Translations under genes and position numbers: made by a program
Shown: positions 1 through 26,619 of the stretch, piece after piece
How the letters are laid out: each line of letters starts with the position of its first letter
Numbering within the stretch: position 1 is the first letter of the stretch
Source of the DNA: Alphaproteobacteria bacterium
GTDB taxonomy: Bacteria > Pseudomonadota > Alphaproteobacteria > Rs-D84
Assembly (NCBI GenBank): GCA_017617915.1
Contig: JAFZVH010000046.1
Coordinates: 1-37,810, forward strand
DNA: 37,810 nt
Direction of reading: 5' to 3'
The notes under the pieces: model-generated
The model's input: the letters and a program-made list of their open reading frames with translations, nothing else
What the model was told of the DNA's origin: nothing
The model's database searches: none

Positions 1-207
1 GCAAAGAAAGCGGCGAAGCCAGAAGTAAAAGCGGCGGCGGCAAAAGAAGAAGTTGCAACTGATGCGGCGCCAAAGAAAGCGGCCAAAGCAGAAAAGCCAG
101 CTAAAGCGGCAACAAAAAAAGTTGCGGCAAAAGAACCTGCGGCACGTGCGGCAAAACCTGCGGCCAAGAAAGCCGTTGCGGTAAAGCGTCGTGCAACAGG
201 CAAATAA
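1..207 (+). CDS. C-terminal end of a Lys/Ala-rich basic protein (5' end outside window)
   Basis: The first 68 codons of the window are open in frame 1 and end at TAA 205-207. They encode a low-complexity tail made almost only of Ala, Lys, Pro, Glu and Val in repeats such as AAKPAAKK and APKKAAKA, ending in KRRATGK. Such tails occur on histone H1-like proteins and as extensions of ribosomal or nucleoid proteins in bacteria. The folded part lies outside the window, so the family cannot be named. A strong intrinsic terminator follows 21 bases after the stop, so this is the last gene of its transcript. I am sure it is coding (composition, terminator placement) but not of its function. Confidence 0.75.
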   Translation, partial: AKKAAKPEVKAAAAKEEVATDAAPKKAAKAEKPAKAATKKVAAKEPAARAAKPAAKKAVAVKRRATGK

Positions 208-228
208 AGCCAAGTAAATATTTTTTAG

Positions 229-252
229 AGACCCCGTTCGGGGTCTTTTTTA
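229..252 (+). terminator. Intrinsic terminator after the Lys/Ala-rich gene
   Basis: A perfect 7-bp stem AGACCCC/GGGGTCT with a 4-base GTTC loop (229-246) is followed by a run of T. It separates the upstream gene from the promoter at 264. Confidence 0.9.
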
Positions 253-320: not shown

Positions 321-2969
321 TTGAAAAATATTCTTGTGGTATTCTTGATATTTGTCGGCTGTTTGGATGCTGCGGTGGCCGCAACCGCGGGTGGTGTGCG
401 TTCGCGGACCTCTGCAACAACAGAACAAGCAACGCAAACGGCGCGTTCTGCGCGGCGCAGCACATCTGAAACTGCGGTTGTTTCGCGTGGGTCGGCGACC
501 CAAGTTGCACAGCCGACTGTTCAACAGCGTGGCCGCGCCACAACGCAAAATAATGTGGCCGCACAAACGGTGTCGCGTGGTCGTGCGGCAAAAACGCAAA
601 GTGTTGTGGGCAGTGGAACCAAGGTCGCAGCGGCGGCCCAGAATACACTTGTTGATGAAGAATGTTTGAACAAATTTAATGGATGTATGGATTCTTTTTG
701 CATGATGGACAACGCAAATGGCGGACGTTGTATGTGCAGTGATAAAAATTCTGAATATGATGCGATTTTGGCGGAAATTCAAAAATTAGATACCCAGAGT
801 TACGAAATGGCGACCGCTGGGGTTGAAAAGATTCAGATGGGCGAAGATGGCGAAGCGGTTATGGCCAAAGTAGACGCGATTACAAAAAGTGTCGCGGGCG
901 ATAAAAACCAATCAAAGCGCGATTTATTGGATTTTTCAAATTGGAATTCCTCGGTGGAATTTGATGATATGCAAGATATTTTTGCGACCGCGGATGATGA
1001 TATCAGCAAACAGACAGGTGACAAATTGTTTCGTGCTTCGGCGGATTTGTGCAATGCCCAGATTCCAGAATGTTCTGCGCATAAAACAATGATGGAATCG
1101 ATGTACAAGCAGCGCGTGCGTTCTGACTGTGCGGCATATGAAAACAGTTTGAAGCAACAGCGTACGCAAAGCGCACAAAAATTGGCGGCGGCACAAAATG
1201 CGATGCGTGAGGCAGCATTAGAACAGTATCGCAGTGCGAATAAGTATGATTTGGGGCAATGCACATTTCAATTCAAACAGTGTATGCAGACGACAGGTGG
1301 ATGTGGTGAAGATTTTTCTGGCTGTGTGACATCGGATTACATTTCAAAACAACTTAAAAAGAAAACAAGTCAAAAGACACAAATCCAAGGTGCGCTTACT
1401 GTGATAGAGATTGCGGCATCGACCTATGATTCGTTGGAATCGAAAAAGCCGTTATGTATGGATGTGACCAAGCAGTGCGTTGCTGTGCGCGACCAAGTCT
1501 GGGATACTTTCTTGCGTGAAGTTGCGCCAGAGTTGAAGTCTGCGGAGTTGATTGCCGAAAATAATGTTCGTTCGTCTTGCATTTCGAATATTTCGCAATG
1601 TTTTCAAAAGGCATGTAAAGACAATATAGACCCAAAGGACCCCGAAGGTTCTTATGATTTATGTTTGACGCGCCCTAATACTTTCCGGTCGTTGTGCAAG
1701 GTTGAAATAGAACCATGCGAGGCGATGGACAAAAAAATTATAGAATCCGTTTATGCGCGGTTGGCATCTATGCGTGTAGATTCTTGTACCAAGGCGTTCA
1801 AATCTTGTTTGCAAAACGAAGATAGATGTGGCGAAAACTATACGCAATGTGTTGGTTTGGATACAGATACGATAGTTGGTTTGTGTCCCGCGGAAACTCT
1901 GACGGCCTGTATGTACGAAGGGCAGGGCAAAAACGTTAAGAAGTCAGAAGAGATTTATGAAGAGTTGTTGAAAGTTGCCGAAGGCGTATTCTTGTCGATT
2001 GACAGTAATATGTTGACGCAGTGTCAAAAGGCGGCTGACGCGGCGATGGTCAAGGTTTGTGGTGATACAGCATCGTGTGACGCTTTTGCAGAGGACAGTG
2101 TTATAGGAACTGAATCTTTGATAAGTTATGAAGATGGCGAGGGCGGAACAGTTCTTGATGGTTTGGCGAATTTTAAATTGTTGACCTTGAATCAGAATGA
2201 AACGAATCAACAAGGCAATCAAAAAGTCACGTATGATATAGATTATGGTGGTTATAAAAGTATGTTTGATGCGCCAAGCTCAAAAAATGCGGTTACAGTG
2301 GCAAGAATTAAATCTGCGATGGACAGTTTGATAATGTCTGTTAAACAAAAACTGGATATCATTGCCAAAGATCCTGTTGTTGATGTGTGTCTGAATGGGC
2401 GTGAACAGACATGGCGGTACAGTGCGAACCGCGACGATGGGGAATATAATAAATTTACGCGATTTCCGCACTTGTTAGATACGTATGGTTCCAAGATTTT
2501 CGAATCTGCGGTAAGTCAGGCGACTGCAAATTATGAATCTAAATATAATGACTTTATCAGCGAAGCAGCCAAGGCGCGTGACCAAGATAAAAAGGCCGCA
2601 ATGTGTTTGTCTATTGCGTCTAATGTGGAAGACAAACAAATTAAAGAAGGTGATATCGAAATTGGATATGTCTTTGGCCATATAGATACTTCTGCAACTG
2701 GGTATTCAGAGTACGAATTGACGGTGCCAGGCGATGATGGTAAGCCAGTTGTTGTTACTAAGGTAAACAAGACGGCGATATACAGTCCAAGTACAGAGAT
2801 GTGTATCATTAAAACCGTAACGCAAAATTGCAAAGACCAGAGTATTTTGAGTTGTGTGGGGTTTAGTGGGTCTGGTACCGACAGAAAGTGCGATGGTTAT
2901 CTTTTGGTCTATAAGCCGTGCATCAAATGGCAAACCCCAGTTGAAACGACCCAGGAAATTCAAATGTAA
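321..2969 (+). CDS. Secreted Cys-rich repeat protein, 882 aa, TTG start
   Basis: Unrecognised secreted protein. From TTG 321 it begins with a clean signal peptide (KNILVVFLIFVGCLDAAVA), about 20 residues. This start is chosen because AGAAGGAAAGAG precedes it and because the longer frame begins inside the promoter. The mature N-terminus (about 20-110) is low complexity, rich in Ala, Thr, Arg and Gln with RGRA-type motifs. After that come repeated Cys modules: around 115-145 (CLNKFNGCMDSFC...), around 314-335 (CTFQFKQCMQTTGGCGEDF...C), and around 489-511 (CTKAFKSCLQNEDRCGENY...C), plus simpler pairs between them. The pattern recurs in the proteins at 3092, 7808 and 9108, so these four genes form a paralogous group. 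An oxidising compartment (periplasm or cell surface) and disulfide bonds are inferred. No enzyme motif seen. Confidence 0.8.
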   Translation: MKNILVVFLIFVGCLDAAVAATAGGVRSRTSATTEQATQTARSARRSTSETAVVSRGSATQVAQPTVQQRGRATTQNNVAAQTVSRGRAAKTQSVVGSGTKVAAAAQNTLVDEECLNKFNGCMDSFCMMDNANGGRCMCSDKNSEYDAILAEIQKLDTQSYEMATAGVEKIQMGEDGEAVMAKVDAITKSVAGDKNQSKRDLLDFSNWNSSVEFDDMQDIFATADDDISKQTGDKLFRASADLCNAQIPECSAHKTMMESMYKQRVRSDCAAYENSLKQQRTQSAQKLAAAQNAMREAALEQYRSANKYDLGQCTFQFKQCMQTTGGCGEDFSGCVTSDYISKQLKKKTSQKTQIQGALTVIEIAASTYDSLESKKPLCMDVTKQCVAVRDQVWDTFLREVAPELKSAELIAENNVRSSCISNISQCFQKACKDNIDPKDPEGSYDLCLTRPNTFRSLCKVEIEPCEAMDKKIIESVYARLASMRVDSCTKAFKSCLQNEDRCGENYTQCVGLDTDTIVGLCPAETLTACMYEGQGKNVKKSEEIYEELLKVAEGVFLSIDSNMLTQCQKAADAAMVKVCGDTASCDAFAEDSVIGTESLISYEDGEGGTVLDGLANFKLLTLNQNETNQQGNQKVTYDIDYGGYKSMFDAPSSKNAVTVARIKSAMDSLIMSVKQKLDIIAKDPVVDVCLNGREQTWRYSANRDDGEYNKFTRFPHLLDTYGSKIFESAVSQATANYESKYNDFISEAAKARDQDKKAAMCLSIASNVEDKQIKEGDIEIGYVFGHIDTSATGYSEYELTVPGDDGKPVVVTKVNKTAIYSPSTEMCIIKTVTQNCKDQSILSCVGFSGSGTDRKCDGYLLVYKPCIKWQTPVETTQEIQM

Positions 2970-2970
2970 C

Positions 2971-3026
2971 TAGTGTTAGTGGTTAGTGTAAGTGGTTAGG
3001 GGCGTTCGCACTGACCACTGCCCACT
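2971..3026. repeat. Imperfect inverted repeat with a dispersed GTTAGTGG-type motif
   Basis: The left arm AGTGTTAGTGGTTAGTG (2972-2988) pairs with CACTGACCACTGCCCACT (3009-3026) through about 15 pairs counting G-U, around a 20-base loop. Positions 2971-2993 match 15659-15681 at about 20 of 23 bases, so it belongs to a dispersed family. It may also end transcription of the upstream gene, though no T-run follows. Confidence 0.6.
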
Positions 3027-3036
3027 AAAAAATACT

Positions 3037-3064
3037 TTGTTATAATGTTTTTTTATGATATAAT
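3037..3064 (+). promoter_or_regulatory. Promoter of the 757 aa Cys-rich gene
   Basis: TTGTTA (3037-3042), 16-base spacer, TATAAT (3059-3064) with an upstream TGA giving an extended -10. Predicted start near 3071, and AGAAAGGAGAGG lies just before the ATG at 3092. Confidence 0.75.
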
Positions 3065-3091
3065 ACAAGGAATAGAAAGGAGAGGTCTTTC

Positions 3092-5365
3092 ATGCAAAAA
3101 TTGCTGAAAATAACGGGTTATAGTCTAATATTTGCTTGTGCATTTGCGGTTGCGGATGCGTCATGGGCGGCGGAAACTGCGCGCGGGGCATCGGCGCGGG
3201 GGCGCGACCGTGTCGCGGTTAGTACTGCAACATCGCGTATGCCGTCCATTCCAATTTTGCCGGTCAGTGCAACCGGAAATATCACGTTTTCACAAGATGT
3301 GATTGACCCTGAACCGACGCCAGAGCCAACCCCGGGGCCAACACCTGGGCCAACTCCGACACCTGTGCCTGTTTGTCCAGATGGCGGCGTGATGAATTCA
3401 ACCTATACGGTTCAAGATTGTATGAACGATGTTCTGGCTTGTGTCAACGGTGGTGCGCTGCCTAATGGAATAAATTCGCTCTATGACGAAGATGTGCGTA
3501 ATTCTATTATGAACGGCATGGGGCTGTGCATGGTTCAGGTTGACAAGTGCATTTCGACCGTTCGTGTAAATTGCCAAAACGTATACGAAAGCAGTGCCGA
3601 TGTTTGGATTGACTTTAATATTCGCAAAGTCCAACCATCGTACTATGCATTCGTTTTGCGTCAAACAGGTCTAACCCCGACCCAGGCGAAAAACACCTGC
3701 CTGTTGCTGGACAAGAACACATACGGTTCGTCCCTTGATGCAGTTGGCCAAGACGATTTGGTAACGGGTGAATACGGACGCGACGAAAGCGCATATAATC
3801 GAACAAAACACACCAAATTGGTAAAAAAGAATCCACAAGGCGTTGAAGTTAACAACAACGGTCAGTATGATGCAAAACGTGGATATTATGCGCGTTGGGA
3901 TGCGGAAAAGGCCGAATGCTTGTTGCGTGTCGCGGCATATAACAAAGACAAGCTTATCACAAATGAATGGCTGGACGTTTTTGGCGACAACAGACCGGCC
4001 GAAGTGTGGCAGGCCACAGGTTCTACATTTACATGCAATAAAGACCTGTTTGGTTTCGCGTTAAGAAACCAAACCAAGTCGATGGCATTGGTTGGTATTG
4101 GTGGTGGAACTGTTGTTGGTGGTGTGGTTGGTGCACTAACCGGCCACAAAGCAACCACAGGCTTTGATTGCAATGATGCAGAGTTGCGTAAAAAATTGTT
4201 AAAGGAAATAAAAGAAAAAAATAAGGCTGGTGCGCTGCGGGTGTATGTCAAAAACAGCACCTCCACAGATTCCCAAGGCAAAAGCACCTCCACAATTTCC
4301 CAAGGCATGAGCGAACTTACCGACACTCAATGCACAGCTATTATAGAGGCCTATGATAACTGGGTTCAACTTGAAGAAGAATATGCAAGATGCCAAGATA
4401 AATTTGCAACCGATAAATGTGTAACTTTCGTATTTGCGGATATTACAAATATCCAAGGCGCAACCGTATCGGATACAGAGCAGAAATACATTGAAGAAGC
4501 GATGAAAAAGTCAACCGACTGTCAAGCACGCGAGGCACCGACAATTGCGAATCTGTTAAAACAATGCTCGTTTAAAAATCTTCACACCGGCAATTTAAGT
4601 TGTGGAACAGAAGGGCAGCAATGTGTACCTTATGGTCAAATTGGTGCCGATGTACGCGCTATGCGGGATATTTTCGCCGACCTTAGCGTATTGAACGAAG
4701 GGCGGAAAGGTACCGTTTTGAAAAATACTTTGATTGGGGCGGGAATCGGCGCAGGTGTTGGTGGTGCTGCGACGGCGATTACCGCTTTTGTAGAAGGCAA
4801 CAATATCAACTGTCGCGTGGGTGATGATTTGAATCGCGTTGGGCTGAATAAATCCCATACTATTGACAGGTTGCGCGATTTCTACGTAAAGTGGGCATTG
4901 AACTTGCCGAATGCGATGACGCCGACCGCGGTTGTTACGAATTGCGAAAACTGGGCATTGTCCTGCAACCTGTACACAGATGCGAACGAATGCGCATCCG
5001 CGGTGTTCAACTATCGCCCAGGTGGCCTTACCACGACACAGTTGATAAGCAACCCTTGTCAGGTTTCGGGCAGTGCATGCATCGCGAATTTGACAACGGC
5101 GAACAATTATGGGCTGTGCCTGAATACTTTCCCAACGGTCAACAACTGTGACCAATGGCGGAACGAATGCGCAAAGTTCACAGATGTAACCTCTTGTGAT
5201 GCGGCACAGTTCTATTATGCCCCAATGAGTACGACTGTATCACGTGCGTGCGTATATTCTGTTGGTGGCAATACTTGTGGTATGAATTCGTCTGTTGCCG
5301 GCAATTATGTGAATATGTCGACCTGTTCATATGTTGCCGAACCGTCGGGTCCCGCAGTGCAGTAA
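3092..5365 (+). CDS. Secreted Cys-rich glycine-zipper protein, 757 aa
   Basis: Signal peptide 1-27 (ending SWAA), then a basic Ala/Arg-rich stretch and a Pro-rich linker (about 72-94, EPTPEPTPGPTP...). Cys pairs follow at 110-161. Two modules then repeat one design: a Cys-bearing segment, a glycine zipper, and a closing Cys. The first is FTCNKDLFGF at 313-322, the zipper GIGGGTVVGGVVGALTG at 335-351, and Cys 360. The second zipper is GAGIGAGVGGAATAI at 549-563 with Cys 574. The first module resembles residues 330-396 of the 430 aa protein at 7808. The C-terminus (617-745) contains two copies of a unit N-C-(E/D)-x-W-x3-C with TD and a later Y-x-P motif. Glycine zippers usually insert into or pack against membranes, so an envelope location is inferred. 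Own promoter and a strong ribosome binding site. Function unknown. Confidence 0.8.
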   Translation: MQKLLKITGYSLIFACAFAVADASWAAETARGASARGRDRVAVSTATSRMPSIPILPVSATGNITFSQDVIDPEPTPEPTPGPTPGPTPTPVPVCPDGGVMNSTYTVQDCMNDVLACVNGGALPNGINSLYDEDVRNSIMNGMGLCMVQVDKCISTVRVNCQNVYESSADVWIDFNIRKVQPSYYAFVLRQTGLTPTQAKNTCLLLDKNTYGSSLDAVGQDDLVTGEYGRDESAYNRTKHTKLVKKNPQGVEVNNNGQYDAKRGYYARWDAEKAECLLRVAAYNKDKLITNEWLDVFGDNRPAEVWQATGSTFTCNKDLFGFALRNQTKSMALVGIGGGTVVGGVVGALTGHKATTGFDCNDAELRKKLLKEIKEKNKAGALRVYVKNSTSTDSQGKSTSTISQGMSELTDTQCTAIIEAYDNWVQLEEEYARCQDKFATDKCVTFVFADITNIQGATVSDTEQKYIEEAMKKSTDCQAREAPTIANLLKQCSFKNLHTGNLSCGTEGQQCVPYGQIGADVRAMRDIFADLSVLNEGRKGTVLKNTLIGAGIGAGVGGAATAITAFVEGNNINCRVGDDLNRVGLNKSHTIDRLRDFYVKWALNLPNAMTPTAVVTNCENWALSCNLYTDANECASAVFNYRPGGLTTTQLISNPCQVSGSACIANLTTANNYGLCLNTFPTVNNCDQWRNECAKFTDVTSCDAAQFYYAPMSTTVSRACVYSVGGNTCGMNSSVAGNYVNMSTCSYVAEPSGPAVQ

Positions 5366-5400
5366 AAAAGACAGAAATTTATATTGTGTCCTGTATCTGA

Positions 5401-5449
5401 CCGCCCCGCAAGGGGCGGTTAGTAAATCGCGGTACCGCCCGCACTAACC
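5401..5449. repeat. GC-rich hairpin and nested inverted repeat after the 757 aa gene
   Basis: A perfect stem CCGCCCC/GGGGCGG with a 4-base GCAA loop (5401-5418) lies 36 bases past the stop. Directly after it, GGTTAGT (5417-5423) is inverted as ACTAACC (5443-5449) around the palindrome GCGGTACCGC. The GGTTAGTG/CACTAACC words match the elements at 2971 and 15659. The hairpin may act as a terminator, but there is no T-tract. Confidence 0.55.
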
Positions 5450-5458
5450 ATTATATTC

Positions 5459-5486
5459 TTGACAGATTGTAAAATGTGTCTATAAT
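5459..5486 (+). promoter_or_regulatory. Consensus sigma-70 promoter, probably leaderless
   Basis: Perfect TTGACA (5459-5464), 16-base spacer, perfect TATAAT (5481-5486). The start point should be near 5492-5494, which is on the ATGATG of the next gene (5491-5496). Confidence 0.85.
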
Positions 5487-5490
5487 TATC

Positions 5491-6507
5491 ATGATGAAAA
5501 AGATATTTGATATTTTGGTTACGCATTATCGGGCGGTTGTTTGGACAGTATTTTATGTCGCCGTCATGTGGGTAGTATTACGCGGCTTGTTCGGTTTTAA
5601 TATGTTTTCTGGTGCGCATTGGACACATATGTTGCATATGCATTTGCATGGTTTTAGTGGTTTGGTTTTTGGATTGTTGGTCTTGGCGGCGGTGCCATTG
5701 TATGTTGCAACAACTGTTTTAACACTGCGCAACAAATCTGTGCCGATTAAGGTTCCAATGCCAAATTGTTTTATGCCACCTGCGCCACCGCCACCAGCGG
5801 CACCCGCCGAACCAGTTGTCACCGAACGTGAAACTTTACCGGTATTGCCGCATGGTATTCCCCAAGAAATGCGCGAAAGTTTTATGCGTGCGCGTAAAAA
5901 TTATGGCACGCGCCAGATGTCTGTCTTTAACAAGGCGCCATTTGCAGATGCCCCAATTGTTGCCCAGAAATCAGAAACGCCGCGCGTGGTCGAGGAACCA
6001 AAACCCGATACAAATTTTACACCGATATTCGAACATTTAGATGGTGTGCACGATACTGAAACAGGCCTGCCAATACCAACGGATTTTGATATCTCGGCGG
6101 ATTCAGATGTGCCGGTATTTGCCGATATAAACTTTGATGACGACGACGATGAAGTGTCGGATGACAATGTCATAACCGAAAAAGAATCAGATTTGTATGA
6201 ATTTTTGGTTGGCGCAGGTATTGACGCATCCATGCAAGATGGTTTAATAATTGCAAATGGTTTTGCAATTGCATCACATATGGACGAGGATTTTTGGGTT
6301 GCAGATGAACTGGATTGGTTTGGTGCAGGCAAACAAAAACCATCACCAATTGCGGAACTGGTAAAAATAAAAGAGAAGTTTAAACCAGTTCTATATCTGG
6401 GTGCGACAAATATTATGGACTTTGAAACGATATCACAAGATTGGCGCGATAATGGCATAACCATCGTCACAGACCGCGATGAATTGTTAAGATTGGTTCA
6501 GGCGTAA
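5491..6507 (+). CDS. Two-helix membrane protein with acidic linker and unknown cytosolic domain
   Basis: Not recognised. The promoter places the mRNA start at 5492-5494, so translation probably begins at ATG 5494 (or 5491) without a leader; the upstream GTG at 5476 is excluded because it lies in the promoter spacer. Length about 338 aa. Residues ~10-32 and ~47-72 are hydrophobic and should form two membrane helices, with short basic ends. A Pro/Ala-rich stretch (PAPPPPAAPAEP) and an acidic low-complexity linker (DDDDDEVSDD) follow. The last ~110 residues look like a small mixed alpha/beta domain (GLIIANGFAIASHM, VLYLGATNIMDF, GITIVTDRDELLRLV). No catalytic motif that I trust. It sits between a secreted Cys-rich gene and a convergent methyltransferase-like gene. 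Confidence 0.75.
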   Translation: MMKKIFDILVTHYRAVVWTVFYVAVMWVVLRGLFGFNMFSGAHWTHMLHMHLHGFSGLVFGLLVLAAVPLYVATTVLTLRNKSVPIKVPMPNCFMPPAPPPPAAPAEPVVTERETLPVLPHGIPQEMRESFMRARKNYGTRQMSVFNKAPFADAPIVAQKSETPRVVEEPKPDTNFTPIFEHLDGVHDTETGLPIPTDFDISADSDVPVFADINFDDDDDEVSDDNVITEKESDLYEFLVGAGIDASMQDGLIIANGFAIASHMDEDFWVADELDWFGAGKQKPSPIAELVKIKEKFKPVLYLGATNIMDFETISQDWRDNGITIVTDRDELLRLVQA

Positions 6508-6517
6508 AGTATTAAAT

Positions 6518-7414
6518 TTATCTTGATTGTGATGGCGCAAGTATCATAAGTATTCCATTGCTGGAATCAACAAAATCAAATTTGTTTAATTCGCTGCGCG
6601 TGGCCGCATTGACCAGTTGGGCCACTTTTTTGGCGGGCGTATTTGATGATACATATAATGCCACGCGCCCGTCATCGGCCAGGCCAGGGCGAACAATGTT
6701 TAAGGATTTTATAATTTGGTTTTCTGTGCGATAGTGTTCAAAGACATTTGATAAATAAATCAAGTCATACTTTTTTGTCATATAATTCGGCAAACTGTCA
6801 ACATCGGACCAGATAAAGTTCATTTGTTGGATGCCATTTTCGCGTGTGGCCGCGTATTCTGTTTCATTTGGTAAATGTTCGTGATAAACGCCAATGCCTT
6901 GCTTAAATATGAAACAGCCGCGCATTTGTTGAATGGCATTTTGCGTTGTGCGCGGACATTTGGCGGAAATTTTATCAAAAGCGTAAATATCAGACGGTTG
7001 GGCGGCAGGGCGCAGACTGTATACAAAATTTGTGTAATCTTTGTAATCCAATGTTTGAATTGCGGCGATTTTCAGGTCAGTTATAACTTTGGCAAAATAA
7101 CTGATGTCAAATGTGTCAACGGATTTTGCACCGTTTGTCGCAAAAGCAATTGGGTGATCGCCACTGCCGGCGATGGTTAAAACAGATTGGTTTTGTGGTT
7201 TCAAAGACTTTACGATAAAACGCCAATCTTCGTTTGTTGTAACATATGCGGGCGAATATGCGCCATAGTTGGAAAGGATGATATCTGTATCACTTAATTT
7301 AACATTTTTATGGGTCGTGTGCGCCAGTTTTTGCCAGTCTGGAATATATTTGCCGGTGCGCGCGTTATAACTGGCGCGTGCCTTGGCGGAATAAAAATGT
7401 GCGTTTGGCATCAT
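6518..7414 (-). CDS. SAM-binding Rossmann protein, DUF3419/BtaA-like
   Basis: 298 aa. A glycine-rich SAM motif, VLTIAGSGDHPIAF (about 78-91), is followed by an acidic strand end (TFDIS) and by KIAAIQTLDYKDY. This order resembles the DUF3419 family, which includes BtaA (S-adenosylmethionine:diacylglycerol 3-amino-3-carboxypropyltransferase), where the motif is VLTIxSxGxN. A later strand, KKYDLIYLSNVFEHY, looks like methyltransferase motif IV/post-I. The substrate cannot be told; a BtaB-type partner is not in the window. The start is ATG 7414 because GGGAG precedes it by a few bases; a GTG at 7435 lies inside the leader hairpin. The transcript has its own consensus promoter (7443-7470), and its Shine-Dalgarno is in the 3' arm of a hairpin (see 7421). 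Confidence 0.7.
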   Translation of the reverse strand: MMPNAHFYSAKARASYNARTGKYIPDWQKLAHTTHKNVKLSDTDIILSNYGAYSPAYVTTNEDWRFIVKSLKPQNQSVLTIAGSGDHPIAFATNGAKSVDTFDISYFAKVITDLKIAAIQTLDYKDYTNFVYSLRPAAQPSDIYAFDKISAKCPRTTQNAIQQMRGCFIFKQGIGVYHEHLPNETEYAATRENGIQQMNFIWSDVDSLPNYMTKKYDLIYLSNVFEHYRTENQIIKSLNIVRPGLADDGRVALYVSSNTPAKKVAQLVNAATRSELNKFDFVDSSNGILMILAPSQSR

Positions 7415-7420
7415 AAAAAC

Positions 7421-7440
7421 TCCCTGTGTTTCCACAGGGA
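7421..7440 (-). promoter_or_regulatory. 5'-terminal hairpin sequestering the Shine-Dalgarno
   Basis: On the - strand TCCCTGTG-GAAA-CACAGGGA forms a perfect 8-bp stem with a GAAA loop. The predicted transcription start is at about its first base, and the GGGA of the 3' arm is the ribosome binding site for ATG 7414. Confidence 0.75.
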
Positions 7441-7442
7441 CA

Positions 7443-7470
7443 AATATAGTTTAAATTTTGTTTTTGTCAA
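7443..7470 (-). promoter_or_regulatory. Promoter of the DUF3419-like gene
   Basis: On the - strand, TTGACA (7470-7465), 16-base spacer, TATATT (7448-7443). Start predicted at about 7438-7440, the first bases of the hairpin. Confidence 0.75.
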
Positions 7471-7494
7471 GTTGTTTACAATCGTCGGTATTTG

Positions 7495-7836
7495 TTATTC
7501 ACCACCATCGGAGTCAGATGGCCCGCTTTTTGTATATCCTTGACCGGTCTCATTTGAATATCCGCCACTATCGTGGGTATTGCTACTCGCTCCGGTAAAT
7601 GCATCTGCGTGATCATCTGCATTCATGTGGGTGTTAGGCTCATTGCTACTCGCTCCGGTAAATGCATCTGCGTGATCATCTGCATTCATGTGGGTGTTAG
7701 GCTCATTGCTACTCGCTCCGTTAAATGTATCTGCATGCTCATCTGCTTTATTTATTGCCTCTTGGTCGCCGCTCGGGGTTGTTGGAGTACCTCCACCACC
7801 GCTGCCTTTACCCCCCACCATTCGCTTTTTTGCCAC
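7495..7836 (-). CDS. Repeat-containing tail ORF, probably the frameshifted end of the 430 aa gene
   Basis: 113 codons, from a Gly/Ser/Pro-rich start (GGKGSGGGGTPTTPSG) into a repetitive Asn/Asp/His/Ala-rich part built from a 21-residue unit (NEPNTHMNADDHADAFTGA plus SS), ending in a Gly/Ser/Asp-rich tail. Its 5' end overlaps the last 29 bases of the 430 aa gene in the +1 frame. Neither GTG 7836 nor ATG 7821 has a ribosome binding site. Removing one G from the G6 tract at 7811-7816 would join the two frames as NGGG-KGSGGGG without a break, so I read this as a C-terminal domain separated by a frameshift (phase variation, ribosomal slippage, decay or assembly error). As an independent gene it is poorly supported. 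Confidence 0.5.
   Translation of the reverse strand: MAKKRMVGGKGSGGGGTPTTPSGDQEAINKADEHADTFNGASSNEPNTHMNADDHADAFTGASSNEPNTHMNADDHADAFTGASSNTHDSGGYSNETGQGYTKSGPSDSDGGE
7579..7750. repeat. 63-bp tandem repeat, two full copies and a degenerate third
   Basis: Copies begin at 7579, 7642 and 7705, exactly 63 bases apart. The first two are near identical and the third diverges after about 35 bases. The period is a multiple of three and keeps the reading frame, so copy-number change would alter tail length without breaking it. Confidence 0.9.
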
Positions 7837-9100
7837 TGCTCAAAAATGTTTGTTCTTTTTTTTCTTCGTTCCAACTGCATTTGCCGCCTTTCCAAGTGCC
7901 GCCAGCATCTTTGCAGTCGTTTTTTGCCTCTTTCTTTTCTTTTGTGGCTTTCCATCCGTTTAGGCTGGCACCAGATGACCACAAACCTGCCGCTGTTCCA
8001 AAGCCTGCACCCAGTGCCGCACCGGTTGCAGATTGCTGTTCGCGGGTGATGCGGTATGCGTTTTCTTTGTATGTTGTTACATCAACGCCGAACCAATCGG
8101 GTGTGCATTGAAATTTATTACCGGCATAAAGTTTCTTTGACGCAAGCGGTTTTTCAAAATCGCTTGACCAGAAATTCACAGTATAAACACAGTCTAGGGT
8201 GCGTTCGTCAAACATTGCCCCAAGGTCTTCGCAGGTGTGGCGCATCAGATTCCGCAGGGCGTACAGACGCTGTTCGTCTTTCTTTACCTGTCCAACTTTG
8301 ATGGTGCGTAATTCACTGAATACATCCATGAAACGCGCGGCCAAACCGCTGTCTTGTTCGCGGCACTCTTTGGCAATATTGGCGCACGCTGAAATCGCCT
8401 TGTCTTCTTGCGCCTTGGACAGGCAATTAGTAAGTGTGCCGCCGCAGGCTTCGGATATACAATTTGCATAGTTCGTACCGCAATTGATAACAGACTGATA
8501 ATAAGATAAACGCAAATTTGCATCACGATCCGCCAAAATTTCTGGCGCAAGCGCCGCAAACTCCGTCGCTGTACAGTTTGTTGTGTTGCGGCATAAATCT
8601 AGTTTCGAACCCCAGATTGTTGTGTTGTCTGTGGCGCAATCGGAAAAATCGTCACCGCATTTTTCTTGCATACAGGCGCGCAGACTGTTATTACAATTTG
8701 CCGCACCCGATGGTGTGGGATTGTTTGATGATGACCCACCATTGGAATTATTATAGGTAGCCATGTATTCTTGAATGGCGTTTGCCGAACCAGGGTCAGA
8801 ATTCAGCAAACTGGGACTTGAAATTTCCGCCATAGCATTGGCAAATGTCGTAGATTTATTGTCAACAATAATGGGTTCTTCTGGCATTTCTTCGATTTCT
8901 TCTTCAGTGTTCAAATCGTTTGAATTTGTCGCAGGTGTCTGAGTTATTGTGGCTGCGCGATTTTGTACGCGTGCCGCCGCCGCGCGATTTCCTGCTGTAG
9001 GGCGATTTACCACCGCTGCGCTTGCATCCAGTATAACCGGCAGTGTTGAAATAATGCCGATACAAGCATATTTATAAAAAAATCTAAACACTTGTTTCAT
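7808..9100 (-). CDS. Secreted Cys-rich glycine-zipper protein, 430 aa
   Basis: Signal peptide about 1-29 (ending DASAA), then an Arg/Ala-rich segment (NRAAAARVQNRAA) and an acidic Ser/Asn-rich linker. Cys modules: 136-155 (CNNSLRACMQEKCGDDFSDC) and 207-226 (CGTNYANCISEACGGTLTNC), the clearest form of the family motif C-x6-C-x4-C-G-x5-C. Residues 330-396 hold FQCTPDWFGV, a glycine zipper GAALGAGFGTAAG and a closing Cys, matching the 757 aa protein. The gene is 7 bases downstream of the 297 aa gene and is cotranscribed with it. It stops at TAA 7810-7808 directly after a G6 tract; see the tail ORF at 7495. Localisation at the periplasm or surface is inferred from the signal peptide and Cys content. 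Function unknown. Confidence 0.8.
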   Translation of the reverse strand: MKQVFRFFYKYACIGIISTLPVILDASAAVVNRPTAGNRAAAARVQNRAATITQTPATNSNDLNTEEEIEEMPEEPIIVDNKSTTFANAMAEISSPSLLNSDPGSANAIQEYMATYNNSNGGSSSNNPTPSGAANCNNSLRACMQEKCGDDFSDCATDNTTIWGSKLDLCRNTTNCTATEFAALAPEILADRDANLRLSYYQSVINCGTNYANCISEACGGTLTNCLSKAQEDKAISACANIAKECREQDSGLAARFMDVFSELRTIKVGQVKKDEQRLYALRNLMRHTCEDLGAMFDERTLDCVYTVNFWSSDFEKPLASKKLYAGNKFQCTPDWFGVDVTTYKENAYRITREQQSATGAALGAGFGTAAGLWSSGASLNGWKATKEKKEAKNDCKDAGGTWKGGKCSWNEEKKEQTFLSSGKKANGGG

Positions 9101-9107
9101 AGTGGTT

Positions 9108-10001
9108 TTACCTTGTGCCTTGGTTGGTGGAGGGTATATTTATAACTGTTCCTTTTGGTACCTTGATATTACCTGTCATGCCGTCGCATGCGGTTTTGTA
9201 ATGGGCGCAGAGTAATTCAGCAATTTTATCGTTAAAGGCACCCGTAAGAGTGTTTTTGCATTCTGTAAAATCCGTCTTTTTTTGACAGTTTGAAACAACG
9301 TTGTTCCATCTGTTTTTGCGTTCTGTTTGAATGTCTTGAACCAGTTCCCTAAGTTGTGTTTGTGCATTTGCAACACTCTTGTTGCGAGAGGTTTTGGTTT
9401 CGTTTTTTACCTTGTTGACATATTCATCGCAGCCCGTTGCCGCGGTTGCGCATTCTGCAATGATTCTGTCTAAATCTGAATCTTGGGTACACATTTCATA
9501 CCGGCGACCGCATTTTGTTTCGATGCAATTTTCCAATGTTTGTGTGCACTTTAGTTCAGAAGGTTTTTGTGTGGCGGTTGCTATGGCCTTGTCGGTTTGA
9601 ACGGTTGCACCGGCGGCCTTGCAAGATTGTTCTATCAATTTATCGTAAATATTTGAAACATCATCGGCGGTGCAATTACCGACCTTTTTAATGCATTCTG
9701 TGGTTGCCCAAATATAGCGTTTCCCAGGGTCAGATGGCGCAACGGCCAATTCTTTGTCGGTAAGAGCGTACTTGGAAGATTGCCCAACACTGATGTTTTT
9801 TAACCCTTGTTGTTTGGGCGGGGTGCCGGCCAGCGAGGTTCCGCAATATTGACAACGCGCCGCAGGATTCATGCCTATATTTATCGCGCAGGCGGAATCC
9901 AGACAACGTGTAATATTGGTCTGGGAACATTTTGGGGCAGCCGCGCAAACTGTTGGAATTACGCCAAAAAATACTGTCAAAAACAGATTTGAATGTTTCA
10001 T
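9108..10001 (-). CDS. Secreted Cys-rich protein, 297 aa, first gene of a two-gene operon
   Basis: Signal peptide about 1-21 (MKHSNLFLTVFFGVIPTVCAA). It carries about 20 Cys in the mature part, including the family motif CTQTLENCIETKCGRRYEMC (about residues 153-172) and an N-terminal cluster CSQTNITRCLDSAC with CQYC. It lacks the glycine zipper and the Arg-rich N-terminus of its larger relatives. A helical, Gln/Lys/Arg-rich middle (about 200-245) may form a coiled coil. AGGCAGGG precedes ATG 10001. The 430 aa gene follows after 7 bases, so the products probably work together. No known enzyme family recognised. Confidence 0.8.
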   Translation of the reverse strand: MKHSNLFLTVFFGVIPTVCAAAPKCSQTNITRCLDSACAINIGMNPAARCQYCGTSLAGTPPKQQGLKNISVGQSSKYALTDKELAVAPSDPGKRYIWATTECIKKVGNCTADDVSNIYDKLIEQSCKAAGATVQTDKAIATATQKPSELKCTQTLENCIETKCGRRYEMCTQDSDLDRIIAECATAATGCDEYVNKVKNETKTSRNKSVANAQTQLRELVQDIQTERKNRWNNVVSNCQKKTDFTECKNTLTGAFNDKIAELLCAHYKTACDGMTGNIKVPKGTVINIPSTNQGTR

Positions 10002-10073: not shown

Positions 10074-10101
10074 TTGACAATGATAAAATATTGTCTATAA
10101 T
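10074..10101 (+). promoter_or_regulatory. Promoter of the 178 aa membrane protein gene
   Basis: Perfect TTGACA (10074-10079), 16-base spacer, perfect TATAAT (10096-10101). Start near 10108, with AAAGGGAAAAG before ATG 10147. Confidence 0.85.
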
Positions 10102-10146: not shown

Positions 10147-10683
10147 ATGGCAAACAGAAAAAAAATATATCCAGAAACATGGGTCTTTGCGGGCTCGGTT
10201 GTGGTTGGTGCGTTGATAATTGCGCTTGGGATGCGTGGATGCAAAGGTTGTTCAGATTGTAATGACCAGACCGTATACGGTTCTAAGGCAAAGGCTGATA
10301 CTGTTGTGGTGAACAAAAGTACTGTTACGATAAACGGTAATAATAATGTTGTTAACATCAATCAAAATATCAACACTGGTGCGCATGGTGTAATAAACAA
10401 CACTCCTTGTGCAAAACCGGCGGTGAAGAAAACAGCACAGCCAAAAGCAAAATCGGAACCAAAACCGACTAAGAGCGAAACAAAGGTGGCAAATGCTGAT
10501 GTTATAATCGTTGATTGCTATGGCAATCTGACACGTAAAACCCAAAAGGTGTATTATAGAAATGTGGATGGACAGACTGTTGTAGACAGCATTGTCGATG
10601 TCAAAAAAGCCGCAGAGGCTTTGCGTGCAATCGATACGTGCAACTGCATCAAAAGTGACAGTTTGGTTGTAAGAAGCAAATAG
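10147..10683 (+). CDS. Single-pass membrane protein with Cys cluster and Asn-rich segment
   Basis: 178 aa, not recognised. A basic start (MANRKKIYPE) precedes one membrane helix (about 12-29, WVFAGSVVVGALIIALGM), followed at once by CKGCSDC. Residues ~52-80 are a polar beta-prone stretch with repeated Asn and Val (TVTINGNNNVVNINQNINTG), like short beta-solenoid turns. A Lys/Pro/Ala-rich linker comes next, then a small C-terminal domain with Cys 134, 162 and 164 (DTCNCIK). Topology by the positive-inside rule puts the Cys parts in the periplasm. It is divergently transcribed from the Cys-rich operon and ends in its own terminator. Confidence 0.75.
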   Translation: MANRKKIYPETWVFAGSVVVGALIIALGMRGCKGCSDCNDQTVYGSKAKADTVVVNKSTVTINGNNNVVNINQNINTGAHGVINNTPCAKPAVKKTAQPKAKSEPKPTKSETKVANADVIIVDCYGNLTRKTQKVYYRNVDGQTVVDSIVDVKKAAEALRAIDTCNCIKSDSLVVRSK

Positions 10684-10792: not shown

Positions 10793-13700
10793 ATGAATTT
10801 CGCCAAAACAAGTGTTTTTACATTGTGTTTTGCGCCGCTGGCGTTGCATGCGGCCGATGATTTTACAATGTCTGCGCAAGTGTTGGCGGCGGCGCGTGCC
10901 GGTAATGCACGTCAAGTGCAGATTCTTGTCAACAGTGGCGCCAATGTCAATTTTGTTGATGCAACTGGTTTATCTTTGGTTTGTACTGCACTTATGAACA
11001 ATGATATGACGGCGGTACAAATATTGCAATCTTATGGTGCAGATTCTTCCACTTGTGATACCCAAATAAAGACATACAAGGCGAAAAATACACCACAACA
11101 GACAGGAGGTTTTTTTAGTGGTCTGTCTACAACCCAAGGTATGGTTTTGACTGGGGCGGTTGCCGCAGCGGCGATTGGTGGTGTCGTTTTATTGACAGAT
11201 GTATTTGACCATGACAACGATAATAATACCACTGGGGGTTCTTCGGGCGGCGGGTCGTCTGGTGGTGGGTCTTCAACAACCAGTGGCACTGCGTGGTCGG
11301 CGGGCGCGTTGCCGTATGGTCCATCTATGGTGAATGCTGCGCAAGAAAGCGCCAATTATGCGAATAATTTGGCATATTATGCACCATCTGACGAAGAGAG
11401 TATTTTGTATCAGAATTTTTATCTGATGAACCATAATCCAAATTTGAACTATAACTATTTATTGTTGATGCGTGGCTATTCGCCGCTGGCGCGCGGGTAT
11501 TTGGGGCAAAGAACTTTACGAAATCCGACCAGTCATGCGCCATTGGCGTTACGTGATTCTAATGGTGATTGGCTATATTCTTATGGGGCGTGGTCTGTTC
11601 AAGGTGGGCGACCGGTGAATGTTGCGCTGGTGACCGCGAATGGAATAAACGCTGCGGCCGATACATCGTTGGAAAATAAATTTTTGGTTTGGGCGGGCGT
11701 AAATACTGATGGCACACCCAGCCCAGCAAGCGCAGAAACGATTTACAGCAAGTATTACAATAATTTGCTGACCCCAGATGGTGCCAACGAGCCAGAAATC
11801 GAAGAAGATACCAGTTTCGATTTGTCCGGTTCTGGAACGGCGATACATAATACTGCGGCATCAGACAGTGATAATATGTTGGCAAAGATTGTCGGTGGTA
11901 ATGATGCGGGCTATGCAAATGCAGATTTCTTTGGTTTTATGCCGAATGGACAAATGACGATATATCGTACCGGTGGCGGGGCAGGGGCCACAGATTATAA
12001 AAATTATTCTGCAATTTTGGATGCCGCAGTTCGAAAACTTGATTTGGCGAATGGGCGCAGCAAAGTTTCGGTAATTGCAAATCTGGACGTGATTGAGCCA
12101 TTGCACGAAACGGAAGCCAAGACAATAAATGATTTGCTGTCCGTTGCGGCGACTGACTATAAAACAACTTTCGCGGAATTTGTTGGTGCGGCATATGGTA
12201 CAAATGATATAAATGATTTGCCTGCGGACAAAGCGACGAGTTTTTTTAATAATCTGGGTTCCTTGTATACTCCACTAACTGTGTTTTCAACAGGCGCGTC
12301 CAAGACGGATAGTACTTATTCTGGCGCATATAAGCTTGCGACCTTTGAAAATGCGGCGCCATTGGTTTATGCTAATTCAAATCATTTGTTTATGTCGGTT
12401 GTCGCGGTTGGTTCTTTGACGCCAAACGGAACAATTGCGGCAAATACTGCCGGGAACCAAAATCAGTATGAACTGTCAAAATGGCAAGACACCGCGTCAG
12501 GAAACTATTATAAATCGCGTGTTTGCGGAATTGCGGGCGCCGGCAGTGCAAACATTGACCCTTGGTGTTTTGCGGCGGTTGGTTTGACGGATGAAATGGC
12601 AACTGCGGCGGCGGCAGGTGCGGCGGGTGTGTTGATGTCTGCGTTTGATTATATGACCCCCCAAGAAATATTTACACTTTTGGCACTGACGGCGGACGGG
12701 CCTTTGATGGCGCGCACTACGGCGGGCGCATCGCTTACATCCACAGAATTGCTAAGTTATTTACAGGGACAATATGATATGCCGAACGAATATCAGTTCC
12801 GTATAGATAACGGTGAAGACTATATGGATGTGTTTAAGGAAGTTTACGGCTATGGTGTTATAAACCTTGAACGCGCGACAACACCTGGAACAAATTTGTT
12901 TTTCTATGATGGAACAAAAATTATATCGACATCAGGCAACGCCTATTGGCGTGCGGCGGCAAATACAGGTTTGCGTACATCATCTGCCTTGAATATAGGA
13001 CGCGTTGCGGTTGACACTGCGGCATATGATGTTTTGGAAAGCGTTGATGGTTCAATGAGTTTGCCGCGCATTTGGAAAAACAGTTTTACCTTGGGTGATG
13101 ATGGGCGTCATGCGTTGTATATGGGCGATGTCTTGGGCGATTTGAAAACACGTGCGGCGGATGATGATACAGTACAGTTTGGTGATTTTGCGTTTAGTTT
13201 GACGCGCAGCCCGCGTGCATACAATGATGCGTTTGGTGGGCTTGATAATATGCGCCTTAGTTATACTAATGCAAATTGGAATTTGGCGGTAGATTACCAA
13301 CATTATTTGACGAACGGTGAATCGCGGTTCTATGGAATGTCGAATCCTGTTTTGAATTTGGCATCGAATGCAATTTCTGGCGGTGCTAATTACAGAGCAG
13401 GTAAATGGTCCTTTGGTGGTCGCGCGTTTTCTGGTGTAATTACTGACGAAGGATTGTTGCAGACCGATCCAACAATTTTATCAGAATACGAACCGATGCG
13501 TTTGGGCTTGATGTCTGGTGCGGCGGCGGAACTGGGATGGCGTGATGCGAATTTTGGTTTGATGACTTCGTTTGGTGCAGTGTGTGAAAATAATACAGTT
13601 CTTGGTGCGTATGCAACGGGTCTGATGGGAATAGATGCGACAGATACGAATTATGTTGATATAGACGCGTTCTGGCGGCCGACCGATTCAGTTCGGTTGC

Positions 13701-14119
13701 GCGCGCGCGCGACCTTTGCGCGCAGTGATGTTGATATGCGTTATGGTACCCAGATGGCGTTGTCGCCACTTGCTTCAAACGCGTTTGCGTTGGGCGCAGA
13801 TATCGCGAATTGGTCGTTTGGTGCATCAATGCCTTTGGCGGTGACAAACGGTGCGGCGCATATGGCGTATGCAGATTATGAAATAATAACAGATGAAAAC
13901 GGACATTATGATTTGGCGATTCGTGATATGGGAACGCAACGAATCGATATGGCGGCGCATTCGCGTGAAGTTCGATTGAACGCAATATATCGTCATCGCT
14001 TTGGTGAATTCACAGATGGTGCACTTGGGTTTATCTATCGCATTCATCCGAATCATACTTCAGAGTTTGGAAACGAATCGGTATTCATGATGAAGCTGAC
14101 ACACGCACTTGGAATTTAA
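10793..14119 (+). CDS. Ankyrin + inactive S8-like passenger + beta-barrel autotransporter-like protein
   Basis: 1108 aa. Signal peptide 1-20 (ends LALHA). Residues ~25-90 are two ankyrin-type repeats (AARAGNARQVQILVNSGANV; NNDMTAVQILQSYGAD). A hydrophobic Gly/Ala segment (117-135) and a Gly/Ser linker (148-162) follow. Residues ~240-700 follow the S8 subtilase layout: strand VNVALVTANGI (276-286), VVAVGSLTPNGTIA (536-549), the Cys pair CGI...WCFAAVG (578-598), the helix EMATAAAAGAAGVLM (601-615) and YGYGVINLERA (686-696). The catalytic Asp, His and Ser positions are not conserved: the GTSMA motif reads TDEMA here. The last ~330 residues alternate like a beta-barrel (WNLAVDYQHYL, WSFGGRAFSG, VRLRARATFA), fitting an outer-membrane autotransporter domain, although the last residue is Ile and not Phe. 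Probably a surface-exposed pseudo-protease; role unknown. Confidence 0.75.
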   Translation: MNFAKTSVFTLCFAPLALHAADDFTMSAQVLAAARAGNARQVQILVNSGANVNFVDATGLSLVCTALMNNDMTAVQILQSYGADSSTCDTQIKTYKAKNTPQQTGGFFSGLSTTQGMVLTGAVAAAAIGGVVLLTDVFDHDNDNNTTGGSSGGGSSGGGSSTTSGTAWSAGALPYGPSMVNAAQESANYANNLAYYAPSDEESILYQNFYLMNHNPNLNYNYLLLMRGYSPLARGYLGQRTLRNPTSHAPLALRDSNGDWLYSYGAWSVQGGRPVNVALVTANGINAAADTSLENKFLVWAGVNTDGTPSPASAETIYSKYYNNLLTPDGANEPEIEEDTSFDLSGSGTAIHNTAASDSDNMLAKIVGGNDAGYANADFFGFMPNGQMTIYRTGGGAGATDYKNYSAILDAAVRKLDLANGRSKVSVIANLDVIEPLHETEAKTINDLLSVAATDYKTTFAEFVGAAYGTNDINDLPADKATSFFNNLGSLYTPLTVFSTGASKTDSTYSGAYKLATFENAAPLVYANSNHLFMSVVAVGSLTPNGTIAANTAGNQNQYELSKWQDTASGNYYKSRVCGIAGAGSANIDPWCFAAVGLTDEMATAAAAGAAGVLMSAFDYMTPQEIFTLLALTADGPLMARTTAGASLTSTELLSYLQGQYDMPNEYQFRIDNGEDYMDVFKEVYGYGVINLERATTPGTNLFFYDGTKIISTSGNAYWRAAANTGLRTSSALNIGRVAVDTAAYDVLESVDGSMSLPRIWKNSFTLGDDGRHALYMGDVLGDLKTRAADDDTVQFGDFAFSLTRSPRAYNDAFGGLDNMRLSYTNANWNLAVDYQHYLTNGESRFYGMSNPVLNLASNAISGGANYRAGKWSFGGRAFSGVITDEGLLQTDPTILSEYEPMRLGLMSGAAAELGWRDANFGLMTSFGAVCENNTVLGAYATGLMGIDATDTNYVDIDAFWRPTDSVRLRARATFARSDVDMRYGTQMALSPLASNAFALGADIANWSFGASMPLAVTNGAAHMAYADYEIITDENGHYDLAIRDMGTQRIDMAAHSREVRLNAIYRHRFGEFTDGALGFIYRIHPNHTSEFGNESVFMMKLTHALGI

Positions 14120-15754: not shown

Positions 15755-16834
15755 TTATCTCTTTATCGGGGCGTCCAGAACCGTTTCATCGCGTATCATA
15801 TCCAGTGGATAGAACTGGAACGGAACAGTTTCAAAGTCTATGCCGCGGATGTCTATGTGTCGCAATGTACGGTTATACATAGTGTGATAATATATCTGGC
15901 CATGCGTTATGTCGGTTGCAACTGTCCACTGGGTCGCCGAAGGCATATCGAAACTGGGCGTTTGGGTCGGCTGGGTCGTGCCGAATGGAACATCCATATT
16001 GTTCAATATATGAAACGCTTGCTTTATTGTTTGGTCGCCTGTCGCTTGCGGAATCGCAAAGTCGCGGAAAAATGTCGCGCGAACGAATCGCGACGGCGAA
16101 GAAAAGTCGCCCGGCAATCCCATCAGGCCTGTGCCATGACTTAGTGATTGCAGTTTTAATGGCCCGAATTTGACCGGCTGGGTCGTGCCAGATTTCAGGT
16201 TGATATAGTTGTTCAGGTTCGTCAAATGCCATGGCAGGCCCGGCGCGTTCGCGATAACTCCGTTCGGGTTGTCGTAAAATGTCGCAACACCGTCGATGAT
16301 TTCCATAACTACTTGGCGCCCCGACGGTTCGGTAATGCGCCAATGCACAGTCGATGCAGTTGGGTCTATGTTGATGATGCGGACACCGTCGATTGCGTCT
16401 TTGAGTTGGTCTATGGTTGAAAATTGCGACAGTATCCATGACACGACCTGAAAGTCCGCCAATGATATGTCGCGCGTGGCGGCGGAATAGGGCCGATATT
16501 TACCAAAGCGCGGGAAATAGAACAGTTCCGCGGACAGGCCGACTTCGTTTGTGCCGTCAACGATGAATTCTGGGCGCTGCATCCCAAGGCCAACAAAGCC
16601 GTATTTTGCGGTGAACTTTACGCCATTTTGTGTGCCGTCTGGCAACAGTGACTGTTCAACGTGGCCGCGCGGAACAATGACATAGATATTGTTCATTTCG
16701 GACCCTGACCAATCGACAGTGCGCGCAACAACGACCGATTTATCAAGCGCCTGCATAGTGATGCCTGTACAGGCGGACGCAGAATTTATGGCACCAATTA
16801 TGGCGCAAATTGCAAAGATAGAAATGTGTTTCAT
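15755..16834 (-). CDS. Choloylglycine hydrolase / penicillin V acylase family amidase, secreted
   Basis: 359 aa. Signal peptide 1-21 (MKHISIFAI...NSASA), so the mature enzyme would begin with Cys22, the Ntn-hydrolase nucleophile. The other family residues are visible: Arg38 and Asp41 (VVARTVDW), the Asn of DGTNEVGLSAELFYF, the Asn of VIANAPGLPWHLTNLNNY, and the Arg of SPSRFVRATFF. This family hydrolyses linear amides such as conjugated bile salts, penicillin V or acyl-homoserine lactones; the substrate here cannot be decided from sequence. The Sec signal places it in the periplasm, as for Gram-negative members. AAAGGAAAA precedes ATG 16834. A longer frame to 17056 is excluded because it reads antisense through tRNA-Gln. 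Monocistronic, with its own terminator. Confidence 0.9.
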   Translation of the reverse strand: MKHISIFAICAIIGAINSASACTGITMQALDKSVVVARTVDWSGSEMNNIYVIVPRGHVEQSLLPDGTQNGVKFTAKYGFVGLGMQRPEFIVDGTNEVGLSAELFYFPRFGKYRPYSAATRDISLADFQVVSWILSQFSTIDQLKDAIDGVRIINIDPTASTVHWRITEPSGRQVVMEIIDGVATFYDNPNGVIANAPGLPWHLTNLNNYINLKSGTTQPVKFGPLKLQSLSHGTGLMGLPGDFSSPSRFVRATFFRDFAIPQATGDQTIKQAFHILNNMDVPFGTTQPTQTPSFDMPSATQWTVATDITHGQIYYHTMYNRTLRHIDIRGIDFETVPFQFYPLDMIRDETVLDAPIKR

Positions 16835-16864
16835 TGGGTTTTCCTTTGGTTTGGTGATGCCTGA

Positions 16865-26497: not shown

Positions 26498-26521
26498 TTA
26501 TAGAAAATTTGAATTCGAATT

Positions 26522-26552
26522 GTGTGGGCGCAAGTGCGCCCACATATTTTTT
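26522..26552 (+). terminator. Intrinsic terminator after the YadA-type gene
   Basis: GTGGGCGC-AAGT-GCGCCCAC (26524-26543) followed by ATATTTTTT. Confidence 0.9.
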
Positions 26553-26564
26553 AGAATTTTATTC

Positions 26565-26593
26565 TTGTGTTATAGGCGCGTGCAGTGTATCAT
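26565..26593 (+). promoter_or_regulatory. Promoter of the 1265 aa autotransporter gene
   Basis: TTGTGT (26565-26570), 17-base spacer, TATCAT (26588-26593). Start near 26600, with AGAGAGGGA before TTG 26620. Confidence 0.55.
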
Positions 26594-26619
26594 ATTACTT
26601 GTTAAAGAGAGGGAATAAA

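Follow-up and report, generated by a model that had tools for sequence, protein, structure and literature searches.

What do four clustered genes for exported, cysteine-rich proteins contribute to the cell of an alphaproteobacterium with a reduced genome? The genes, here labelled P0001, P0002, P0003 and P0004 (at positions 321, 3092, 7808 and 9108), lie at one end of contig JAFZVH010000046.1. The window analyzed is the whole of this contig (37,810 nucleotides), which belongs to a 726-kb draft genome (58 contigs, 88% complete) from an order that is probably Rs-D84 (Enterousia); the tiny-genome alphaproteobacteria of this order are probably gut dwellers. A first-pass annotation had described the products as four secreted paralogues of an unrecognized family. 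Export was borne out, each protein having a signal peptide that appears type-I-like by eye, and the family is indeed unfamiliar, in that the Pfam, NCBIfam and PHROG libraries gave no useful match for any of the four. To the reading developed here, that the locus supplies parts of a lineage-specific envelope assembly whose components are exported alpha-helical proteins braced by disulfides, we give about an even chance.

Cysteine parity and predicted pairing

Counted after the signal peptide, the cysteines are even in number in 35/37 P0001, 19/19 P0002 and 32/32 P0004 sequences, and odd in 31/32 P0003 sequences, though the P0003 counts range from 15 to 41. P0004 has 20 mature cysteines in 31 of its 32 aligned sequences, the window copy having lost two together. 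The proteins that share the N-terminal cysteine domain of P0001 (described below) were even in 9/9 cases in the same genome, which was read piecewise to about 62%, and in 9/10 cases in G036, a related genome likewise read in pieces; the tenth (29 cysteines) was odd by a crude signal-peptide cut. The product of gene X, which follows P0003 in related genomes, was odd in 12 of 13. Controls were mixed, with even/odd ratios of 9/10 and 7/5 for neighboring non-exported families, 129/107 for other G036 proteins and 41/44 for all exported-looking G036 proteins.

An even number of cysteines is accepted as a sign that an exported protein forms disulfides (PMC7678975). Two cysteine columns of P0001 (831 and 877) co-vary perfectly, as do two of P0002 (504 and 511). 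The even parity suggests that nearly all disulfides are probably intramolecular and serve as internal braces, whereas odd parity in P0003 and X would leave one spare cysteine in each and predicts one intermolecular disulfide. In P0003, fourteen invariant cysteines fall into seven close pairs; the candidate unpaired residue is then Cys332, which belongs to the F-x-C motif. The general label of cysteine richness is thereby narrowed to one named candidate cysteine and one named candidate partner. A DsbA-like protein (PF01323) is encoded in 56/59 genomes of the order, including the present one, where it is membrane-anchored with a CPYC motif. Together with even parity and invariant cysteine columns, this sustains the earlier suggestion that the proteins form disulfides.

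Gene X encodes an exported, cysteine-rich protein of 574-1075 amino acids in the examples seen. One scanned copy contains CarboxypepD_reg_2 (E 7e-12) and a C-terminal OmpA domain (PF00691, E 1e-14), and other copies have similar ends by eye. Its core consists of two Gly-zipper stretches around a single cysteine in an F-x-C motif, with no other cysteine nearby. X therefore resembles OmpA/Pal-type proteins in its terminal OmpA domain (in the scanned copy, and by eye in most others) and its Gly-zipper segments, but adds CarboxypepD_reg-like and EGF-like regions and the new core with its isolated cysteine. Two unlinked carriers of the X core, one of them fused to ankyrin-like repeats, occur elsewhere in the same genome (L228:3310-4401 and L230:3181-5001); in the one that was scanned, the Gly-zipper/single-cysteine core had no Pfam match.

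AlphaFold models gave P0003 a confident helical core at residues 131-292 (mean pLDDT 65) and P0001 long helices, mostly at 113-580 and 643-767, followed by strands at 774-881 (mean pLDDT 72). Structure prediction had been proposed in the first-pass annotation as a check, and for P0003 and P0001 singly it returned helical models with no known relative: Foldseek found no match at E below 0.001 for either, and the best VIA Z scores (5.9 and 6.5) lie below the chance level of helical models. Generic helical or levivirus-coat-like sheet matches from the two programs (Z below 7) were not trusted, and searches of PDB sequences with the profiles of P0001 and of its N-terminal domain produced chance matches only. 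A C-x6-C spacing would place two cysteines on the same helix face, suggesting that helix hairpins are stapled. The CHCH, or twin CX9C, helical-hairpin proteins likewise have two cysteines on one helix face, suggesting helix-helix stapling. The likeness is one of architecture only: here the spacing is C-x6-C, the proteins are large, bacterial and exported, and there is no Pfam match.

Kinship within the cluster and across the order

Profiles of P0001, P0003, P0004 and P0002 (A1, A2, A3 and A4, built from 37, 32, 32 and 19 sequences) were compared with one another, each comparison being accompanied by 40 column-shuffled controls. P0001, P0003 and P0004 matched mutually, with scores of 59.7 for P0001-P0003 (null maximum 37.4), 48.8 for P0001-P0004 (24.1) and 48.7 for P0003-P0004 (28.6), and probabilities of 74-88% against a null maximum of 13%; common to all three is the module C-x6-C-x4-C-G-x5-C. 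P0002 matched P0003 (52.7, null maximum 28.3, probability 80%), a likeness confined to F-x-C-x2-D/N-x-F-G plus a Gly-zipper segment, while its profile was unmatched against P0001 (6.9%) and P0004 (0.8%) and the protein contains 0 copies of the module. The proposal of four paralogues with one repeated cysteine motif thus stands for P0001, P0003 and P0004 but not for P0002, and simple paralogy of all four was set aside. The motif examples first reported, CNNSLRACMQEKCGDDFSDC and CTQTLENCIETKCGRRYEMC, are present; in the strict form C-x6-C-x4..8-C-G-x4..6-C, 10 occurrences were counted across 13 proteins of this genome, where composition-shuffled copies gave 0.02. The basic Ala/Arg/Thr-rich start ascribed to the three larger proteins is strong in P0001, where the 88 residues 21-108 hold 10 R and 2 K against 2 D/E, but is short in P0002 and P0003, with acidic sequence after it.

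The N-terminal cysteine domain of P0001, C-x6-C-M-D-x2-C-x9-C-x-C, is absent from P0002 and P0003, and the start of P0004 (C-x7-C-x4-C-x11-C-x2-C) is merely similar. Nine further proteins of the same genome carry it, making ten with P0001, and the first spacings (6, 4, 9, 1) are almost constant among them; G036 also encodes ten. A profile of the domain (A5) matched 113/114 genomes of the order, the matches per genome numbering 7-17 within the bacterium's own family and 1-5 across five other families; in a class-wide sample it matched 0/380 other alphaproteobacterial genomes and only the five genomes of this order. A tree of 46 N-domains from several genomes separated into ten ortholog groups, support for most of them being at least 97. 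Nine of these groups have one member each in the present genome and G036, and the tenth was found only in G036 and G028; the tenth domain of the present genome, truncated at a contig end, was too short for the tree. Ten supported groups, mostly with one copy per genome, indicate that the expansion is old and has been kept vertically, with tandem duplication of P0001 in places among relatives. The family proteins are 650-1100 amino acids each, such that about ten genes occupy some 3% of genomes of 0.7-1.1 Mb in nearly every sampled species of one family. These genomes are reported to lack most biosynthesis, and retention of about ten large genes in reduced genomes points to a core surface or periplasmic function. 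An apparently different type of cysteine-rich protein also occurs in G036, where the genes at 84880-91719 and 141853-146025 encode exported proteins of 2279 and 1390 amino acids that contain 180 and 102 cysteines, respectively.

The cluster itself has 20 related counterparts spread over about eight genera; their neighbors were identified by eye, and rearrangements or contig ends interrupt a few of them. The usual order is rpoA-rplQ, P0001 (in one to three copies), a membrane protein and P0002, followed by X, P0003 and P0004 in convergent orientation and then by a small membrane protein and an ankyrin/autotransporter-like protein; RpoA-RplQ, by eye, precede P0001 in most, and in related genomes the membrane-protein gene (5476..6507 in the window) lies between P0001 and P0002 on the opposite strand. 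P0004 lies 7 nucleotides upstream of P0003, both on the minus strand. P0003 is present in 56/60 genomes of the family, and P0002 in 40/41 of those sampled; elsewhere in the order P0002 had a single weak match. G028 (a genome 99% complete) lacks both P0002 and P0003, has only weak or paralogous matches to P0001 and P0004, and retains other N-domain paralogues; P0003 and P0004 are jointly missing from G044 and G016. The clustering noticed at first pass therefore extends to other genera and to joint absence, and the outcome that the annotation had named as damaging to its idea, homologues that never co-occur and match a known enzyme family, was not obtained. Agreement among 20 further genomes led us to set aside a sequence artefact. 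So too with a mobile or phage origin, given the conserved chromosomal place beside rpoA-rplQ and the lack of phage or plasmid matches; relatives were not found in the plasmids, phages and viral contigs searched.

A proposed envelope assembly and its rivals

In the assembly envisaged, each family protein would be secreted, probably by Sec, and oxidized in the periplasm by the membrane-anchored DsbA. Nearly all cysteines would then pair within the chain, stapling helical hairpins, P0004 behaving similarly. P0003 and X, usually in one operon, would each keep one unpaired cysteine beside a Gly-zipper, which probably forms a single intermolecular disulfide, either P0003-X or a homodimer. Such a bond would fasten the helical proteins to a base anchored in the membrane and peptidoglycan, the Gly-zippers possibly making contact with the membrane. 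Several points weigh against this proposal. The window cluster has no X beside P0003, and the X core, without the OmpA domain, sits on two other contigs of the genome. Orthologues are not independent samples, so that the parity is strong but carries no formal probability, and an odd count is also compatible with a free thiol or a bound cofactor. Both structure models are of modest confidence. Finally, the DsbA/DsbB pair that the first-pass annotation had suggested looking for was only half recovered: alongside DsbA, DsbB (PF02600) was found in 0/59 and VKOR (PF07884) in 0/41 genomes of the order, control genomes being matched. For a near-universal DsbA without detectable DsbB or VKOR, some other re-oxidation partner is to be expected.

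TraN of F-type conjugation is a large exported, cysteine-rich envelope protein, and the chief competing explanation, which we regard as unlikely, is that the proteins work as TraN does, in the outer-membrane or surface portion of a divergent type IV secretion system or pilus. G036 encodes VirB4-like (E 5e-11), VirB3-like (E 6e-7), borderline VirB8-like and T2SSE/T2SSF proteins, and its module-bearing protein at 689300-692428 is close to pilin-like genes; these various genes are scattered over L215, L218, L201 and L206 and suggest a divergent secretion system or pilus in the lineage. The family is, like TraN, large, exported and cysteine-rich, but the four genes never stand beside type IV secretion genes in the 20 related clusters, no TraN-type or type IV secretion family appears among the Pfam and NCBIfam results for the four proteins, and ten paralogues are many for one machine. 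Secreted adhesins or effectors directed at host or prey cells, in which the basic arm would bind acidic polymers, would agree with the R/T/A-rich arm after the signal peptide and with a lineage thought to be partner-dependent (PMC12306168). We consider this improbable: the mostly single, vertically inherited copy per ortholog group is unlike rapidly changing sets of effectors or variable adhesins, and the genes are linked to those for an OmpA-domain protein and Gly-zipper proteins.

The first-pass annotation had raised the possibility of a layer like that of chlamydiae, in which cysteine-rich proteins are densely cross-linked to each other. The signal peptide, the many cysteines and the basic stretch behind the signal peptide recall OmcB, whose basic region spans residues 41-79 (PMC2229832), although the stretch is clear in P0001 and weaker in P0002 and P0003; DsbA is present, and the window protein at 21335-26497 has Chlam_PMP repeats. 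Parity speaks otherwise, even counts in P0001, P0002, P0004 and most other members arguing for internal pairing, with about one cysteine each in P0003 and X appearing unpaired. Chlamydial cysteine-rich families were unmatched in Pfam, both by the four window proteins at E up to 1 and by other members at E up to 0.05, and some ten paralogues of 650-1100 amino acids with a helical, repeat-like architecture also set the system apart from OmcA/OmcB. Rs-D84 genomes, if this is the order, are moreover reported to retain genes for rod shape and peptidoglycan (PMC12306168). The idea of a cross-linked layer has accordingly become quite improbable. Very high cysteine content and the odd counts in P0003 and X might alternatively reflect binding of metal ions or cofactors instead of disulfides, but export to an oxidizing compartment with DsbA, near-strict even parity with paired cysteine losses, and cysteines spread along long helices and not packed in clusters make this very doubtful.

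The disulfide-braced envelope assembly has a bolder form, which we put forward only tentatively: that the envelope of the order may be built around a new core family of ten helical proteins stapled by disulfides, with one dedicated P0003-X disulfide joining them to the membrane and wall. If true, bacteria that are streamlined and partner-dependent would possess an envelope scaffold of a new type.

Flanking genes and other features

Table 1. Features of the cysteine-rich protein locus and its surroundings (positions in the window)
Feature	Position	Strand	Remarks
rplQ-like gene, 3' end (Lys/Ala-rich tail)	1..207	+	Sequence; conserved left neighbor of locus
Terminator-like hairpin (9-pair stem) then T-run, 3' of rplQ	227..248	+	Sequence
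Promoter-like site TTGTCA-17-TAAAAT, TG-extended, upstream of P0001	264..292	+	Consensus match only
P0001: signal peptide, basic A/R/T-rich stretch, N-terminal cysteine domain, more cysteine modules, beta-rich C-terminus; 36 mature cysteines	321..2969	+	882 amino acids, TTG start
P0001 low-complexity basic segment, residues 21-108, low model confidence	381..644	+	Composition, model
P0001 N-terminal cysteine domain, residues 112-345: C-x6-C-M-D-x2-C-x9-C-x-C then C-x6-C-x6-C-G-x5-C	654..1355	+	Defining domain of order-wide family
P0002: exported, cysteine-rich, two Gly-zipper segments, F-T-C-N-K-D-L-F-G motif; 30 mature cysteines	3092..5365	+	757 amino acids
Membrane protein, hydrophobic N-terminal segments; conserved neighbor	5476..6507	+	Open reading frame, synteny
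Methyltransferase-like protein (DUF3419/Methyltransf); frequent neighbor	6518..7435	-	Pfam, synteny
Small putative open reading frame with tandem repeat, at place of gene X in relatives	7495..7836	-	Open reading frame list, repeat search
P0003: two cysteine modules, F-x-C motif, Gly-zipper; 17 mature cysteines (odd)	7808..9100	-	430 amino acids
P0003 Cys332 codon (F-Q-C-T-P-D-W-F-G); proposed unpaired/intermolecular cysteine	8105..8107	-	Suggested by parity and shared motif
P0004: two cysteine modules; 18 mature cysteines	9108..10001	-	297 amino acids
Small membrane-anchored protein; related genomes have a positional counterpart	10147..10683	+	Open reading frame, synteny
Ankyrin/subtilase-like/beta-barrel autotransporter-like protein; conserved right neighbor	10793..14119	+	Weak Pfam scores; barrel by eye

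The terminator-like hairpin after rplQ suggests that P0001 is probably a separate transcription unit. Promoter-like sites, such as the one upstream of P0001, are enriched about 1.7-fold over shuffles in the region; perfect TTGACA-16-TATAAT matches occur at 5459-5486, ahead of the gene for the membrane protein at 5476, and at 10074-10101, ahead of the gene at 10147. The repeat in the small reading frame next to P0003 has a 63-bp unit (7579-7746, 2.7 copies, 96% matches). Farther along the window, the gene at 21335-26497 (plus strand) encodes a large exported protein in which Chlamydia PMP repeats (E 2e-9) are unusually combined with a YadA-type anchor (E 5e-8). The next gene, at 26509-30417, looks autotransporter-like and by eye has similar GGAIYN repeats, without a Pfam match. 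A choloylglycine hydrolase family protein (E 4e-59) is encoded at 15755-16840 on the minus strand; bile salts are a possible substrate, and this would be in keeping with life in the gut.

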